Source of the DNA: an uncultured Pseudomonadota bacterium
GTDB lineage: Bacteria > Myxococcota_A > UBA796 > GCA-2862545
Direction of reading: 5' to 3'
Length of the DNA stretch: 64,000 bases
Assembly: GCA_913061235.1 (NCBI GenBank)
Contig: CAJXTB010000002.1
Coordinates: 310,001-374,000 of the forward strand
Position numbers and translations under genes: made by a program. Within the stretch, counting starts at the first letter, position 1; each line of letters starts with the position of its first letter. Under the pieces are notes generated by a model that was given only the letters and a program-made list of their open reading frames with translations, was not told where the DNA came from and did no database searches. Shown here piece after piece: positions 20,720 through 28,141 of the stretch.

Positions 20720-23281
20720 CTACTCGTCGTGGTCGCGACGCAGGCCACGAAACAAGCGCTGAAGCACTCCGCCAACCTCGACAAGGGGACCACCGTGTTC
20801 GTCGCACTTGTCGTCGGGTTCATGGCCGCGAGGAACGACCTCTCGGTAGGTGTTGGGGCAGGCGTTGCGAGCAATGCGTTCAGAATCTGCGCATACGCTC
20901 ACGGTAGTGACGGTTGCCGGCTGTGGAAAGGTTCCTCCAGTCATGCCGCTGCCGGCTACGAACCGCCCCCAGAGGGGGATGGCGGCGCGGCTTCCAGACA
21001 ATCCAATGCCTTCGCCGCGGTCCGTGCCGACCCAGACAGCCACAACAAGCTCGGGGGTAAAGCCTACGAACCATGCATCCCGGTAGGCGTCGGTAGTGCC
21101 CGTCTTTCCCGCGACGGAATTGCCGACATCGTAGCGGCGTACCCGTGCACCGGTGCCGTCGCTGACCACACCCTGGAGAATGCTGGTGGTGAGTGCGGCG
21201 CTGGCAGCGGAAAGTATGGGCGTGCGTTCGGCGTCGTAGTGAAGGATGGAGGTGCCGTCTGCGTCATCAACGTCGGTGACTAAAAGTGGCGCGACCTTGG
21301 TTCCTCCGCCCGGAAAGACCGTGTAGGCGCCGGCGATTTCAACCGTTGTCGCGGGGAAGGCCCCGAGTGAGGCGGATGGAAGCAAGGTTGCCTCCGACAA
21401 GCCCAGGGTGCGAAGCTGACGCTGCACGCCAGACATACCAACCATCTCCGCGACCTTCACGGCAGGGATGTTCCGACTGCCCTCTAGTGACCGGCGAAGC
21501 GTGATCTCACCCACGAATTGGTGGTCATAGTTGGACGGCGTCCAGGTTGCTCCGTCGACGCGTCGGGTGATGGGTTCGTCGAGAAGGACGGTGAGCGGCG
21601 TCAGGCTCGGGTCTGCATCGAAGGCTGACGCCACAATCAATGGCTTGACCGTAGAGCCGACTTGTCGCCATGCCTGGGTCGCTCGATTGAACGGACTCTC
21701 GTCGTAGTCGCGACTCCCCACCATGGCCATGATGGCACCGTCCGATACGCGCACCGCCACAAGAGCGGCTTGGGCCTGTGTGGCGTCGGGGTAGGCAGCA
21801 CGGACATCTGCTAGGCCTTGAACCACCGCCCGTTCTGCGTGTCGTTGTAAGGCAGGGTCGATGGTCGTTGTGACGTGGTAGCCACTCGCGATACCGCCAT
21901 CGAGGGCCTCTTCGAGCTGGTCGACTGCGGCGTCTACTGCCCAGGGCGCACGACGATTGGCGGCGGGAACGCTGCCACCGGTAACCATGGGGGTCGCTCG
22001 AATGGCGTCTGCTGCGGCTTGTTCGAGGTGCCCTTCAGCGACCATTCGTCCAAGGGCCAGGTCGCGTCGCTCGGTGGCGCGTTCGGGGTGGCGGTGCGGC
22101 GAGTAGGTGTTCGGGCTGGAGATAATGCCGGCGAGTGTTGCCGCTTGGCCAGCGTCTAGTGAGCTCGCAGACACGCCAAAGAACGCACGTGCTGCCTGTT
22201 CCACGCCGTGGACGGGAACCCCACCGACCTGTCCAAGGTAGACCTCTCCTAAGTACAGTTCCAACAGGGCATCTTTGCCTAGCGTGCGCTCCATCGCGGC
22301 TGCATAGAACGCCTCTTTGATCTTGCGCCGAGCCGTGCGTTCTTGTGTAAGGAACAGGTTCTTCGCGAGCTGCTGTGTCAACGTCGACCCGCCCTGCATA
22401 GGGCCTTGGCCGGTGAGGTCTGTGACGATGGCGCGTGTCACCCCCAAGATATCGATGCCTGGATGACTGCGGAAGCGGCTGTCTTCCATGGCCAGGACGG
22501 CAGGTTCAACCCACGGACTTAGGGTGCTCAACTCTACGGGGTTTCGATGGGCTTCCAGGTCCCCGATGACGGCGAGGGGAACGCGGCCTACCTGAAGCGG
22601 ACTGGGGCCGACGCCGTCGACGTGGTCGTCGTCAAAGGTGATGACGAGGCGCTCGCCCTCACGACTGCGCACGACGAAGGTCGCGGCACTGTCGTCGAAC
22701 TGTGCGGCACGAGGGGCATCTGCGACGCGTTCGAAGCCGGCAGCAAGTAAGTCGCTAGACAAGTCGCGAGCCGTGATCGGAAGCCCTGGAACAACCGCGT
22801 AGGGAGCCGACCAGACAACGCCGGGCTCGCTGACCACAGGGTTTGCGAGCCAATAGTTTACTTCGTCGACAGCGTTTCGATACTCGAAGACACACGCAGC
22901 GACGCCACCGAGCGCCAAGCCGAGTGCCACAACGCCAACTTCGGTCAGCGCTCTTCGCAGACGGGACTTCTGAGGCTGGGAGCTGCGCCGTTTTGATGCT
23001 GCTCGGTTGGTTGCGGTTCGGCTTGATTGGCGGGTCTTTTCAGCCTTCGGGTCGGGCTTCGTGCCACTGCGGGACCTCTTCTCCGGTGCCCTCTTCTTCG
23101 CCGGTGCCTTCTTCTTCGCCGGTGCCTTCTTCTTCGCCGGTGCCTTCTTCTTCGCCGGTGCTTTCTTCTTCGCCGGTGCTTTCTTCTTCGCCGGCGCCTT
23201 CTTCTTCGTAGGCGCTCTCGTCTTCGCAGCCTTCTTCTTTGCTGCTTTCTTCTTCGGCGTTGGCTTCTTCGTGTCTGCCAT
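20720..23281 (-). CDS. mrcB: Class A penicillin-binding protein, PBP1b-like, with Lys-rich repeats
   Basis: A bifunctional murein synthase of 853 residues. Residues 1-95 are cytoplasmic and extremely basic, built from repeated KKAPAK hexapeptides. A membrane helix lies near 107-130. A UB2H-like domain follows (around 150-225), which points to PBP1b rather than PBP1a. The glycosyltransferase domain has 'AMEDSRFRSHPGID' (catalytic Glu) and 'GGSTLTQQLAKNLFL'. The transpeptidase domain has SxxK as 'GSTVKPL', SxN as 'GSRNIP' and 'KTGTT'. The gene begins 3 bases after the WD40 gene stop, so the two form an operon. Confidence 0.94.
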   Translation of the reverse strand: MADTKKPTPKKKAAKKKAAKTRAPTKKKAPAKKKAPAKKKAPAKKKAPAKKKAPAKKKAPAKKRAPEKRSRSGTKPDPKAEKTRQSSRTATNRAASKRRSSQPQKSRLRRALTEVGVVALGLALGGVAACVFEYRNAVDEVNYWLANPVVSEPGVVWSAPYAVVPGLPITARDLSSDLLAAGFERVADAPRAAQFDDSAATFVVRSREGERLVITFDDDHVDGVGPSPLQVGRVPLAVIGDLEAHRNPVELSTLSPWVEPAVLAMEDSRFRSHPGIDILGVTRAIVTDLTGQGPMQGGSTLTQQLAKNLFLTQERTARRKIKEAFYAAAMERTLGKDALLELYLGEVYLGQVGGVPVHGVEQAARAFFGVSASSLDAGQAATLAGIISSPNTYSPHRHPERATERRDLALGRMVAEGHLEQAAADAIRATPMVTGGSVPAANRRAPWAVDAAVDQLEEALDGGIASGYHVTTTIDPALQRHAERAVVQGLADVRAAYPDATQAQAALVAVRVSDGAIMAMVGSRDYDESPFNRATQAWRQVGSTVKPLIVASAFDADPSLTPLTVLLDEPITRRVDGATWTPSNYDHQFVGEITLRRSLEGSRNIPAVKVAEMVGMSGVQRQLRTLGLSEATLLPSASLGAFPATTVEIAGAYTVFPGGGTKVAPLLVTDVDDADGTSILHYDAERTPILSAASAALTTSILQGVVSDGTGARVRRYDVGNSVAGKTGTTDAYRDAWFVGFTPELVVAVWVGTDRGEGIGLSGSRAAIPLWGRFVAGSGMTGGTFPQPATVTTVSVCADSERIARNACPNTYREVVPRGHEPDDKCDEHGGPLVEVGGVLQRLFRGLRRDHDE
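23083..23208 (-). repeat. 18-bp tandem repeat inside PBP gene
   Basis: Seven near-identical 18-base units (sense-strand content GAAGAAGAAGGCACCGGC, with few third-position changes) encode the KKAPAK repeats of the PBP N-terminus. More diverged copies flank both ends. Copy number is likely to vary between strains through slippage, always in frame because the unit is 18 bases. Confidence 0.9.
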
Positions 23282-23284
23282 GAA

Positions 23285-25123
23285 CTACAGCGGTGCGCCG
23301 TCGCTCGCGTCGATCACGCCCTTGGGACCATAGGTGACCCAGTGGAGCTCGGGAAGCGAGCGCAAGACCGAGACCTCGTTTCCGTACATGTCCATCTCCA
23401 AGATGGCTCCGCCGCGTGCTGGCTGCAGGATGGAACCCGTCTCAGGGTCGACCCAGGCGTAAGGCAGCAGGTTCGGGACCTCGCTGACCACATCGCCCTT
23501 CTCCAGGTCGACAAAGATCACAGTGGCGGTGCCCTGTTCTGGCTCCTGGAAGCGCACCGCCGCGTGGCGTCCGCCCGTAATGCCCCACAATCGGTCGACG
23601 GGAACGTTGAGGTCGAGAACGTCTTCGCCAATGGCTGGGCGTTCTTCGGTGACGCTTACGGACAAGTCGTACACGGAGAGTACGCCGTCTTCGTCCAGTA
23701 CCAGCATGTCTGGCCGGCGATTGACGAAGGAGACCAATGCGACGGGAACGTCGGATATGGGCTCGGGGGGCGGAATGGCATCTTCACCGGTTGCCGGATC
23801 GAGAACGCGAACATGGCCCTTGGGTGTGATGACACCGAGCCAGGTACCGCCACCGGACAGGGCGAACTGCTCGACCCAGCCGAGCTCAAAGACGTTGTTC
23901 CCCTTGAGTTCCCACCAGCGCAGGCCCCCTCGATCCAAGAGCGTTGCGACGACAGCGCCGCCGACCTCCATCTTGGGCGTATTGGCTGTGTCTCTGCCGG
24001 CTTCAAACAGGTGACGACCGCTCTTGACCTCAAATACTTGAAGGCCGGAGCCGTCATCTGGAAGCCCGCACAGCAGGCGTCCATCACGGTCGACCTTGAC
24101 CTCAACAAAGCGCTTGCGTGCTGGGAAGGGACGACGACGGCGTCCGCGTGTCCACACCGCCATCTTGTCACCGTGGGCGGCAATTCGGTGGTGGCCGTAC
24201 CCAGTGCAGCAGACGATGGGGGGGAGCGACGGCGTGCGACCGGGGCGGTGGAATCGTCCGTCTTCGCCGCCAATAGCGAGGCCTTCCCAGTCCCACATGC
24301 TGGCGACAGTCGGGTCTGGCGCCCCATGCTTGTCACTCGCCACGGGCTGTAGACCCGGAAGGCTGAATTGGTGGACCGAGCGCTGGGACACCGCGGCAAC
24401 ACGGTCACCGGCTGGATTGATGAGGATACTCAACAGGCCGCTGCTGCTGCGCGCACTGAAGGAGTTGGCGATGCGTCCCTCAGGCAGCTGAATGAGCGTG
24501 ACACCGCCACCGCCGAGTGCAACCACATGGTGAGAGTCCGGGGTGAACATGGCTTCCTGCACACCGCCCGGCACCAGCTCGAGGTCCAGCTGTTCATGGG
24601 TGAGCATGTCCAACAGTTTCACCTGGCCCAAGGTATCAATGACCAGAAGGTGATCGCCTCGGGCGTCAAACGCGATGGACTGCCCGGCGAAGCCCTGCCA
24701 ATTCACGATGCGCTGGTTGCGTTGGATGTCGTAGACACGAACGATGCCATCGGCTGATAGTGCCGCAACGACGGTTCCATCCGGGTGGAATGCAATGCCT
24801 CGCATGGCGCGAGCTTGGCCATCCGTACCGGCTTTTTCGTCTCGGAAGACTTCGGTGCCGTCCCAGGTCTTGAAGACGCTGAGCGTGCCGTTCTCGTCTC
24901 CGACGGCTGCGAGTGCGCCGCCCTTGGACATGGCAACGGCGTAGATAGCCGTCTCCATTGTGTAGATAAACGCCGGATTCCGCTCGTTCGGACGAGTGAT
25001 TGCGACGGTGCCCCAATCATCAGCGGTGATAGTCGCGCCGGAATGGGGGTCACACACCGCAGCCGAGATGGCGCCGGAGTGGGGTTCGGGACAGTATTGG
25101 TCGACAAGGCTCGGTGGATGCAT
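23285..25123 (-). CDS. WD40-type beta-propeller protein
   Basis: A 612-residue protein without a signal peptide. It contains many degenerate WD40-like blades, for example 'AMRGIAFHPDGTVVAALSADGIVRVYD' in part, and later 'GHVRVLDPATGE' and 'GVLSVYDLS'. It probably forms two propellers. The ATG at 25123 has no obvious ribosome site and may be a leaderless or weak start. The stop is 3 bases before the PBP1b-like gene, which suggests co-expression. A cytoplasmic scaffold for the cell-wall synthase is possible, but that is only inference from gene order. Confidence 0.8.
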   Translation of the reverse strand: MHPPSLVDQYCPEPHSGAISAAVCDPHSGATITADDWGTVAITRPNERNPAFIYTMETAIYAVAMSKGGALAAVGDENGTLSVFKTWDGTEVFRDEKAGTDGQARAMRGIAFHPDGTVVAALSADGIVRVYDIQRNQRIVNWQGFAGQSIAFDARGDHLLVIDTLGQVKLLDMLTHEQLDLELVPGGVQEAMFTPDSHHVVALGGGGVTLIQLPEGRIANSFSARSSSGLLSILINPAGDRVAAVSQRSVHQFSLPGLQPVASDKHGAPDPTVASMWDWEGLAIGGEDGRFHRPGRTPSLPPIVCCTGYGHHRIAAHGDKMAVWTRGRRRRPFPARKRFVEVKVDRDGRLLCGLPDDGSGLQVFEVKSGRHLFEAGRDTANTPKMEVGGAVVATLLDRGGLRWWELKGNNVFELGWVEQFALSGGGTWLGVITPKGHVRVLDPATGEDAIPPPEPISDVPVALVSFVNRRPDMLVLDEDGVLSVYDLSVSVTEERPAIGEDVLDLNVPVDRLWGITGGRHAAVRFQEPEQGTATVIFVDLEKGDVVSEVPNLLPYAWVDPETGSILQPARGGAILEMDMYGNEVSVLRSLPELHWVTYGPKGVIDASDGAPL

Positions 25124-25162: not shown

Positions 25163-26056
25163 GTGGCAGTTGTGGGTGTAGACATTGGTGGCAGTGGCGT
25201 GCGAGCCGCGGCCCTCTCAGACGGAAAGGTGTCGGATGTTCTCGAAGACATTGGCCCGCCAACAGGCTTGGATTCGCTGGTTGAGCGACTCTCGGTCATG
25301 ATTCCCCGTCTCGGTTCCTGTTCAGCCGTAGGCATAGGGGTTCCCGGATTCGTGCGTGACGGCTGTGTTCTCGGTTCACCGAACCTTCCATTTCTCGCGG
25401 GCGTCGACCTGAGAAGTGTGCTGCGCGAACGGCTTGGTTTGCCCATTGCCCTGCTGAATGACGCGAATGCCGCAGCCTACGGAGCTTGGGTCGCGAGCGC
25501 CGATCGATCCGATCTCTTGGTGCTGACTCTAGGTACAGGAGTGGGGGGTGGCATCATCTTGGATGGGCGACCGTTCGTTGGTGCGTCGGGAACTGCAGCT
25601 GAGGTCGGTCACATTCACATCGGTGGGGACATCCCGTGTGGGTGCGGCGCAGCTGGATGCCTAGAGACGTGGGTTGGTACGGTTGGACTGAAGCGTCAGG
25701 CGGAGAGATTGGGACACTCGATTGCCAATGTTCGTGAGCTCGTTCAACAGGCCGACGCCGGCGAGCTGTGGGCGCAGGCCCTGCTCCACGGCGCGGCGCG
25801 TGCGCTTGGCCAAGGACTGCGCACGTTGCTCAACACGCTTGGGGTTCAGCGGGTGCTCATTACGGGCGGTGTGGCCGGGGCCGAGGCATGGCTACGCCCC
25901 GGTGCTGAACAGGTACTCGCGCGCTACGGGATTCCGAGCAACACCGAGTTGGTACGTATGGAATGGCGTGCAAGTGCCGCTTCGTGGGCCATTGCAGGAG
26001 CCGCGGCCTATGCAGAGTCAGCCGGACGCGACCCGAGGACGTCATCGCCGGGCTAG
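25163..26056 (+). CDS. ROK-family sugar kinase (glucokinase-like)
   Basis: A 297-residue cytoplasmic kinase. It has the N-terminal phosphate-binding motif 'GVDIGGSGVRAA', a sugar-binding loop ending in 'LLNDANAAAYG' (catalytic Asp), the adenosine region 'LTLGTGVGGGII' and the ROK zinc signature 'CGCGAAGCLE' preceded by 'GHIHI'. These fit a glucokinase or other hexose kinase. No DNA-binding domain is attached, so it is not a ROK repressor. The GTG at 25163 has AGGAGAG upstream. The frame is open a further 370 bases upstream but that runs antisense through the WD40 gene. The GH57 gene follows 9 bases later. Confidence 0.92.
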   Translation: MAVVGVDIGGSGVRAAALSDGKVSDVLEDIGPPTGLDSLVERLSVMIPRLGSCSAVGIGVPGFVRDGCVLGSPNLPFLAGVDLRSVLRERLGLPIALLNDANAAAYGAWVASADRSDLLVLTLGTGVGGGIILDGRPFVGASGTAAEVGHIHIGGDIPCGCGAAGCLETWVGTVGLKRQAERLGHSIANVRELVQQADAGELWAQALLHGAARALGQGLRTLLNTLGVQRVLITGGVAGAEAWLRPGAEQVLARYGIPSNTELVRMEWRASAASWAIAGAAAYAESAGRDPRTSSPG

Positions 26057-26065
26057 ACTCCCCGC

Positions 26066-28141
26066 ATGTCTACTCCTCTCGACTTGGTTCTCTTGGTCCA
26101 CATGCATCTGCCAGCAGGGGGGACCGCTGCTGAGTGCGAGCGAGCGTGGTCCAACTGCTTTGAGCCCATGCTGGGCGCCATCCACCACACCCCAGGTGTT
26201 CGCATTGGGCTTGTGTTGTCAGGGGAGTTGGTGCCCGACCTGAGCGACCGGCATCCCGAAGGCCTGGACTGGATTCGGACCCTCGTTGACCGAGGCCAGA
26301 TCGAGCTGGTTGGCACTGCCATGTACGAGCCTGTGCTGTCGTCGATTCCGGAGGTCGATGCTGTCGGTCACTACGAGACCCACGCCACAATGCTTCGTAA
26401 GACCTTTGGCGGGCGTACCACGGGTGCCTGGCTGCCTCACAATGTGTGGGACCCCTCACTTCCACGGGTGTTCTCAGCGGCAGGCTTGCGCTGGGTCGCA
26501 GTTCCTGAGCGTCATTTGGAACGTGCGGGTCTGCCAAAGGGCCAGGTGAGCGGCATTCATCACACCGAGCGTGAAGGCAGTCCTGTTGCTATTTTGCCGG
26601 TAGATAGCCGGGTTCAAGACGTTGCGGCGGAGGTTCCCGTCAAACGCATCTTGGCTCATCTGCGGGGCCGGAAGCAGAAGGGGCACAAGCTTGTTGCGCT
26701 GGCATTGCGTGCAGAGCGGTTCGGTCTTCACCCTGGAAGTTCTCCACGCCGCGACCAGACGTGGTTTGCGACATTGCTCGCAGCGATTGCGCGGTCTGAC
26801 GCTCTCAATACGGTACTTCCGTCGCAAGCCGTCGATCTTGGCGGTCATGTTCGCTCAGTCTACTTACCGTCCACGTCTCCGGGCACTAACGATGCGCCGT
26901 GGGAGAGCCATCTTGTTCGCTATGACGCGGCCGATCGACTTCATAAGCGGGTTCTTCGGGTCAGCCGGCTGGTAGGCCGACTCGCTCGTCGGCTTGAGGA
27001 GTCCCGTGTTGACCGTCCCGACCCAGCCGTTGTTCTTCAGGCGCGGCGCTACTTGTACCGTGCCCAAGCGAGCGAGCCGTACTGGCACGATGCCCACGCC
27101 GGTGTCTACGACCCTCGGGTCCGCGGTCTGGCTTGGAAAGACGCCATACGTGCCGAGAACACCGTACTCAAGGCGCTCAAACAAGACCAACGAGCCGTGG
27201 TGGAGCATGTGGACGTAGACTGCGACGGCTCGGATGAACTGGTCCTGCGTTCTCGGGACTTGACGCTGGTCGTTGACCCGAACCGGGCGGGTGGCGCCAT
27301 TGAACTGTCCGACCATCGCAGTCATCGGAACTGGCTCGATACCTTCCAGCGCATTGAGGAGCCGTACCACGCGGCCATCATGGCCTCTGCCGAAAGCCCG
27401 AAAGACGTTCCGGTTCAGGTGGACACTCAGAGCGGGACTCCAGCAGAGGATGCGGACCGTGCGACTCTGCGCCATCTAAGCTCGATTTTGGGCTTCGATG
27501 CGGTTCCTCGAACGTCCTTCGTCGAGCACTTCCTCTCTGAGACGGACACCATTCGAACGGTCCGCTCCGGACAGCAGTCTGACGGTGCATTTCCGCTCAA
27601 AGTTCGCCCTTGGACAGTGGTTTCCGCCGACCGGGCAGGGGACGATACCCTAAGTGCTGCACTTGCTTGCGAGGCAACGCTGACCACTGAGGCTGGGCCT
27701 CGTCAAGTGCGCGCTACGAAGCGCTATACGCTGCGGCGCGACCTGACTGCGTTTCGCTACGAGCTTGAGAACACCGGTGAACACCCAGTCGTCACTAGAC
27801 TTGCTGTGTCCATGGACCTTGCAGTTTCGAGTGGAGCTGCGGCATGGTTAGAAGTAGACAATGAGCGTGTTCCATTGGAAGGAACACGTGATTGTGGGCA
27901 GGTGGAGTCGTTGCGTCTGGTCGACGGAGACCGTGTCGTCGAGTTGCGAACGTTGCAGCCTGCGCACCTATGGGTCTACCCCATTCAGACCGTTCATCGT
28001 CATCTTGGCGAATGGACAGATGCGCTTCAGGCGGTCTGTTTGATGTGGGTACATCGCGTGAACATTAGCAGCGGCGAACATGAGCGATTCGACGTGAAGC
28101 TTCGGGTTCTGCCCGGTACCGGCGTGATCCCGCAACCGTGA
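26066..28141 (+). CDS. GH57 4-alpha-glucanotransferase/amylase homologue lacking catalytic residues
   Basis: A 691-residue protein matching the architecture of GH57 4-alpha-glucanotransferases: a TIM-like barrel (1-310), a helical domain (about 290-400) and a beta-rich C-terminal domain (about 400-690). Family motifs are recognisable: 'LVHMHLPAGG' for region 1, 'GTAMYEPVLSSIPE' for region 2, 'WLPHNVWDP' for region 3, 'LRAERFGLHPG' for region 4. In the Thermococcus litoralis enzyme the nucleophile is Glu123 in 'WLTERVW' and the acid/base is Asp214 in 'DDGEKFG'. Here those positions read His125 and Leu/Arg. It follows a ROK kinase gene by 9 bases, so a link to glucan metabolism is plausible, perhaps binding rather than cleaving. 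Confidence 0.85.
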   Translation: MSTPLDLVLLVHMHLPAGGTAAECERAWSNCFEPMLGAIHHTPGVRIGLVLSGELVPDLSDRHPEGLDWIRTLVDRGQIELVGTAMYEPVLSSIPEVDAVGHYETHATMLRKTFGGRTTGAWLPHNVWDPSLPRVFSAAGLRWVAVPERHLERAGLPKGQVSGIHHTEREGSPVAILPVDSRVQDVAAEVPVKRILAHLRGRKQKGHKLVALALRAERFGLHPGSSPRRDQTWFATLLAAIARSDALNTVLPSQAVDLGGHVRSVYLPSTSPGTNDAPWESHLVRYDAADRLHKRVLRVSRLVGRLARRLEESRVDRPDPAVVLQARRYLYRAQASEPYWHDAHAGVYDPRVRGLAWKDAIRAENTVLKALKQDQRAVVEHVDVDCDGSDELVLRSRDLTLVVDPNRAGGAIELSDHRSHRNWLDTFQRIEEPYHAAIMASAESPKDVPVQVDTQSGTPAEDADRATLRHLSSILGFDAVPRTSFVEHFLSETDTIRTVRSGQQSDGAFPLKVRPWTVVSADRAGDDTLSAALACEATLTTEAGPRQVRATKRYTLRRDLTAFRYELENTGEHPVVTRLAVSMDLAVSSGAAAWLEVDNERVPLEGTRDCGQVESLRLVDGDRVVELRTLQPAHLWVYPIQTVHRHLGEWTDALQAVCLMWVHRVNISSGEHERFDVKLRVLPGTGVIPQP

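Follow-up and report, generated by a model that had tools for sequence, protein, structure and literature searches.

A GH57 4-alpha-glucanotransferase-like protein without catalytic residues and its links to bacterial glycogen gene clusters

The window, i.e. the whole stretch of 64,000 nucleotides that was analysed, encodes a GH57 protein with the fold of a glucanotransferase in which both catalytic residues are replaced. Its relatives with lost catalytic residues form a single clade (termed here the dead clade, as opposed to relatives with intact catalytic residues), with a conserved gene order, purifying selection and co-occurrence with a GH77 enzyme, all of which are read directly from the sequences. 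We consider it probable that catalysis was lost from a GH57 glucanotransferase in a lineage where GH77 carries out the same job, the protein being kept as a non-catalytic accessory of glycogen metabolism. The order of these events and the accessory function are what we infer, the role in glycogen metabolism because of the gene order and the co-occurrence; binding of a glucan or of a partner by the protein is a guess.

Fold and catalytic sites of the window protein

The features of the gene are as follows.

26066..28141, + strand: GH57 4-alpha-glucanotransferase-like protein, apparently non-catalytic, 691 residues (open reading frame, Pfam, phmmer, AlphaFold model)
26162..26836, + strand: (beta/alpha)7 barrel domain, PF03065 match, residues 33-257 (Pfam)
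26438..26440, + strand: His125 codon (cac), in the place of the nucleophile Glu123 of TLGT (phmmer alignment)
26705..26710, + strand: Leu214 (ttg) and Arg215 (cgt) codons, in the places of Asp213 and the acid/base Asp214 of TLGT (phmmer alignment)
26900..27160, + strand: middle helical domain, PF09094, residues 279-365 (Pfam)
27212..28063, + strand: C-terminal beta-sandwich, PF09095, residues 383-666, galactose-mutarotase-like fold (Pfam and fold match)

The reading frame is uninterrupted by stops, and its product belongs to GH57 by both sequence and fold, with PF03065 scoring 64.7 bits against a cut-off of 21.2 and the list of fold matches for the modelled protein being headed by GH57 structures (incomplete TIM barrel). 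PF09094 and PF09095 also lie above cut-off (E-values: Glyco_hydro_57, 1.1e-17; AmyA-A_glucT_m, 7.1e-11; AmyA-gluTrfs_C, 5.7e-29), giving the succession of barrel, middle and C-terminal domains that is characteristic of TLGT, the Thermococcus litoralis GH57 4-alpha-glucanotransferase (PDB 1k1w/1k1x/1k1y). In a phmmer search of the PDB, TLGT (1k1w) was the sole significant match (2.6e-47), no other having an E-value below 0.2. An AlphaFold model built from a 51-row alignment (mean pLDDT 90.8, pTM 0.91) reproduces the whole TLGT fold, matching 1k1x with a Z score of 40.9 and 1.8 A across 597 residues (Foldseek E 2.9e-53). A Pfam search at E-values up to 1 found no BE_C domain (PF09210), the mark of the GH57 branching enzymes, in the protein.

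The nucleophile of TLGT is Glu123 and its acid/base is Asp214 (available text of PMC5347038). In the phmmer alignment, WLTE(123)RVW of TLGT stands opposite WLPH(125)NVW, and HD(213)D(214)GEKFG opposite AL(214)R(215)AERFG, such that the GH57 catalytic pair, a Glu on beta4 and an Asp on beta7, is replaced by His125 and Arg215. The sequence-only reading, which had both catalytic residues replaced and gave the second site as 'Leu/Arg', is thus borne out, Leu214 being in the place of Asp213 and Arg215 in that of Asp214. Compared with TLGT, the equivalents of Asp213, Arg124, Lys217 and Trp221 are replaced along with both catalytic carboxylates, whereas His12, His14, Glu80, Trp122, Glu217, Trp340 and His341 are retained. 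Neighbouring motif residues were likewise correctly said to remain, i.e. Trp, Leu, Trp and Pro flanking the first site together with Glu, Phe and Gly beyond the second, and these residues anchor the alignment at both sites.

With an identity to TLGT of only ~25%, misalignment might in principle hide other acidic residues at the catalytic positions. The sequence-only reading held this to be unlikely, and we regard it as exceedingly improbable, because the anchors match on both sides of each site, the fold match extends over the whole protein, the modelled strands beta4 and beta7 end at residues 122 and 215, where the catalytic residues are expected, and the same picture emerges when intact relatives are included in multiple alignments.

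Proteins of this kind have already been described. The available text of a 2018 study (3 Biotech 2018, PMC6037648) designates 63 bacterial GH57 sequences lacking one or both catalytic residues as '4-alpha-glucanotransferase-like (4AGT-like) proteins', a description that fits the window protein, which is bacterial, nearest to 4-alpha-glucanotransferases within GH57, and without the catalytic residues. In that available text the analysis of these proteins is deferred, and gene context, a GH77 link and a myxobacterial clade are not discussed. Searches of the open-licence PMC literature found neither GH57 together with pseudoenzyme nor any account of what 4AGT-like proteins do, where their genes lie or how they relate to GH77, and the available part of PMC11046441 holds nothing on this group. 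A myxobacterial GH57 protein of Sandaracinus amylolyticus, AKF06951, which its authors aligned to 1K1W, differs from the window protein in that both catalytic residues are conserved (available text of PMC5010890). What is new here is therefore the genomic context rather than the kind of protein.

Catalytic positions and constraint across relatives

Relatives were collected by an alignment scan, a scan of the genome collection with the single protein as query having given no match. Among 57 relatives, 33 belong to the dead clade and the other 24 all keep both Glu and Asp. Within the dead clade neither residue is present in 24 members, Asp only in seven and Glu only in two, and no member has both. 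The nucleophile column holds Tyr (13), Phe (4), Leu (4), His (3), Trp (3), Glu (2), Cys (2), Val (1) and a gap (1), a variety that is hard to reconcile with a new catalytic residue there; the acid/base column holds Arg, Pro, Ala, Ser, Gln, Asp and others, and Gly and deletion also occur at the catalytic positions among relatives. The pattern extends to the 50 genomes with the dead form in our sample of relatives, a set from which G072 and G077 were excluded as intact and G021 because its match was weak and partial: 45 of the 50 were readable at both columns (all except G032, G048, G055, G069 and G070), and not one of these kept both residues.

The distribution of other conserved residues is informative with respect to what the dead clade may do. 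The equivalents of TLGT Trp221, Lys217, Arg124, His13 and Trp357 are invariant in the intact enzymes and lost in most members of the dead clade, which, for much of the clade, speaks against glucan binding in the old sugar cleft. Conservation that is peculiar to the dead clade and not shared by the intact enzymes is seen at eight positions (Asp129, Arg169, Arg291, Arg305, Leu306, Pro445, Arg549 and Arg570 in window numbering, although the window protein itself has Thr at 570), and a search for a new interface should begin with them. For residues invariant in intact enzymes, loss was no commoner inside conserved motifs than outside (Fisher p 0.67), and a specific loss of active-site motifs was accordingly rejected.

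These observations bear on the suggestion of the sequence-only reading that the protein is either a pseudoenzyme or an enzyme of altered mechanism. An enzyme of the latter type would employ other cleft residues or act on another substrate. Of the 33 dead-clade members, 32 retain the equivalent of TLGT Glu79 and one has Asp in its place, the barrel fold is intact in the model, and a GH13 amylase with His as its third catalytic residue is active, albeit with its nucleophile and acid/base kept (available text of PMC5347038). We nevertheless consider an altered mechanism quite unlikely, since both catalytic positions vary freely, with Phe, Leu, Val, Ala, Gly and deletion among their states, and the eight clade-specific positions, comprising one Asp, five Arg, Leu and Pro, offer no obvious new acid pair. 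A pseudoenzyme is the better reading.

In a quick tree of the 57 rows, which is unrooted and in which the rows differ in composition, a single branch parts the 33 dead from the 24 intact sequences (SH-aLRT 100). The direction from intact to dead is taken from the intact motif being common to several phyla and TLGT. The window protein groups with that of L033 (49% identity) in a six-member group. Three MAG records titled Klebsiella pneumoniae (L046 and L094) or Bifidobacterium breve (L067) carry the clade's gene and a glycogen cluster; they sit inside the clade in the tree, and their titles are probably mislabelled.

Loss of catalysis has apparently been accompanied by continued selection on the protein. 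By a Nei-Gojobori script, dN/dS was 0.04-0.21 in nine close dead pairs and 0.07-0.23 in seven intact pairs (the pair of the window and L033 being saturated), showing that the close dead-form pairs evolve under purifying selection. For pairs with a C-terminal identity of 0.15-0.35, barrel identity was 0.27-0.29 in dead pairs compared with 0.42-0.46 in intact pairs, the pairs being non-independent, and at a higher C-terminal identity of 0.45-0.6 the gap shrinks (0.61 versus 0.64). A lower barrel identity in dead pairs is what would be expected if catalytic constraint had gone from the barrel while the fold stayed.

A decaying relic, functionless and carried along in an operon, would also have lost its catalytic residues, and some observations point this way. 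In the window's own family the gene is present in six of 21 genomes and absent from 15; the homologue in G048 (L127:5512-7646) consists of two shorter frames, the split being either a genuine lesion or an error of assembly, and very diverged copies occur in G023 and G044. The absences and the split frame imply that the gene is dispensable in places. That it is a relic we think unlikely, however, given full-length frames under purifying selection across many genera, the confident whole-fold model for the window copy, and retention of the gene in genomes where it stands apart from the rest of the cluster (e.g. the window genome, G011 and G020).

Gene neighbourhood

Two further features of the window adjoin the gene.

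25163..26056, + strand: ROK-family sugar kinase, 297 residues, GTG start, GGAGAG 5 bases upstream (Pfam ROK, 2.1e-46)
23285..25123, - strand: WD40-type beta-propeller protein, divergently transcribed, a neighbour shared by several relatives (Pfam)

The kinase, whose start was assigned as GTG 25163 by reading, ends at 26056, 9 bases before the GH57-like start; it has as its best PDB match the glucokinase 2qm1 (2.1e-32) and is probably a glucokinase. Further along the minus strand, 20720-23281 encodes a penicillin-binding protein (Transgly and Transpeptidase), the N terminus of which carries a long repeat rich in Lys, Ala and Pro.

The wider context was compared across 32 loci (31 from a contig scan plus the window), of which several are close relatives and some lie on contigs that end early. 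A GH57 branching enzyme lies immediately 3', on the same strand, in 22 of the 32; L059 has one 3.8 kb downstream, in which Pfam identifies PF03065 and BE_C. A GalT-like gene and GlgA come after the branching enzyme in several loci. Two loci of family f11, L132 and L133, have the order GH57, intact glucanotransferase, GH57 branching enzyme, GlgA, and L119 and L126 have the identical order with a dead glucanotransferase, implying that, within one phylum, the dead gene stands where another glycogen cluster has a working glucanotransferase. The intact enzymes of L038, L041 and L092 adjoin the branching enzyme, GalT-like plus GlgA, or GlgA, and most other intact loci have none of these glycogen neighbours in the flanking DNA covered.

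The GalT-like protein of the cluster (L035:9077-9997, L033:3699-4664 and L041:8503-9480) is above the Pfam cut-off in L033 and L041, weak and below it in L035, and without a Pfam match in L059. The best PDB match of the L035 copy by phmmer is 1z84 (1.7e-24), which we take to be an ADP-glucose phosphorylase, and by analogy the protein may act on ADP-glucose and not on UDP-galactose.

The sequence-only reading had the GH57 protein coupled to the ROK kinase. The kinase truly adjoins the gene, but a specific coupling is not supported: the window kinase matched the window alone among the 32 loci and only L131 (from G020, same family) among 30 further regions, and the conserved neighbours are glycogen genes. 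A conserved ROK unit was therefore rejected. Where the window has the kinase, between the WD40-type and GH57-like genes, L034, L035, L037 and others have another GH57 gene.

In seven of the 32 loci (the window, L034, L035, L036, L037, L047 and L075), and also in L116, L119, L122, L124, L126, L130 and L131, the WD40-type gene is head-to-head either with the GH57-like gene itself or with a preceding GH57 gene, an arrangement seen also where the branching enzyme is not adjacent. This, and the position of the kinase between the WD40-type and GH57-like genes in the window and L131, would suit a sensor or regulator: on binding maltodextrin or glycogen, the dead protein would signal the state of that glucan to another protein, for example the WD40 protein or the adjoining kinase. 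We hold such a role to be rather doubtful, since a Pfam search found no DNA-binding or signalling domain in the GH57-like protein, the WD40 gene was not seen in 25 of the 32 loci, and the kinase is so placed in two loci only.

An assignment as ROK of the head-to-head neighbour in L045, L048, L051, L063 and L067 was withdrawn, the L051 copy having neither Pfam (E up to 1) nor PDB phmmer support. That copy (L051:8617-9996, - strand) is a 460-residue protein, has kin so placed in five loci, matched nothing in Pfam or the PDB, and bears a motif that we take to resemble that of actin-type ATPases.

In the window genome the glycogen cluster is dispersed, with the branching enzyme and GlgA on other contigs. 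Its one other GH57 gene is a branching enzyme with BE_C on contig C4, the catalytic motifs of which we read as presumably intact. The genome also has a full GH77 gene on contig C21 (3.4e-134), GlgA on contig C11 and a phosphorylase match; the frame beside the GH77 gene (L104) encodes what we take to be a phosphoglucose isomerase.

GH77 and the proposed history of the clade

GH77 is present in 48 of the 50 dead-form genomes, the exceptions being G032 and G059 (88% and 79% complete), and in 32 of 41 genomes with neither form. It is present in neither of the two intact-form genomes in the sample of relatives and in three of 34 further intact-form genomes from the contig collection, i.e. L041, L092 and L096, the intact call for L096 being based on the nucleophile only. 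Overall the contrast is 48/50 for the dead form versus 3/36 for the intact form (Fisher p 6e-18), but the switch between the dead and intact states occurs once in the tree, so that the comparison amounts to one evolutionary contrast and not fifty. It fits displacement of the GH57 reaction by GH77 without proving it, as shared ancestry alone could produce it. The homologous intact glucanotransferases of Nitrospinota, Zixiibacteriota and family f11 (L017, L026, L041 and others) differ from the dead clade both in keeping Glu and Asp and in that most of their genomes are without GH77. The branching enzyme is found in 39 of 50 dead-form genomes and 13 of 41 with neither form, a comparison to which the same caution on kinship applies; a strict dependence on it was rejected, as it is missing from 11 of the 50 and so is not an obligate partner.

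We propose that the ancestor in this bacterial class (probably Myxococcota) had an intact enzyme inside a glycogen gene cluster comprising a GH57 protein, the glucanotransferase, a GH57 branching enzyme, GlgA and in many cases a GalT-like gene. The lineage would rely on the unrelated GH77 glucanotransferase for the chemistry, and the GH57 protein would have lost its nucleophile, its acid/base, or both, with selection keeping the folded protein as a non-catalytic accessory of glycogen metabolism. The likeliest mode of action would be binding of a glucan or of a partner enzyme, for example the branching enzyme or glycogen synthase. In the window genome the cluster would then have been broken up, leaving the ROK glucokinase in the slot held by another GH57 gene in relatives.

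The overall results place the little-studied 4AGT-like pseudoenzymes in a genomic context, assign them an ancestral slot in an operon and offer a plausible explanation for the loss of catalysis, i.e. the presence of GH77, which catalyses the same reaction, and this context makes their function testable. A more far-reaching proposal, which we advance tentatively, is that the whole class uses the inactivated glucanotransferase as a dedicated non-catalytic factor for glycogen assembly, made beside the branching enzyme and glycogen synthase following takeover by GH77. Were this so, bacteria would possess a glycogen scaffold that descends from an enzyme without being catalytic itself, comparable in principle to the scaffold proteins that bind glycogen and starch in animals and plants.
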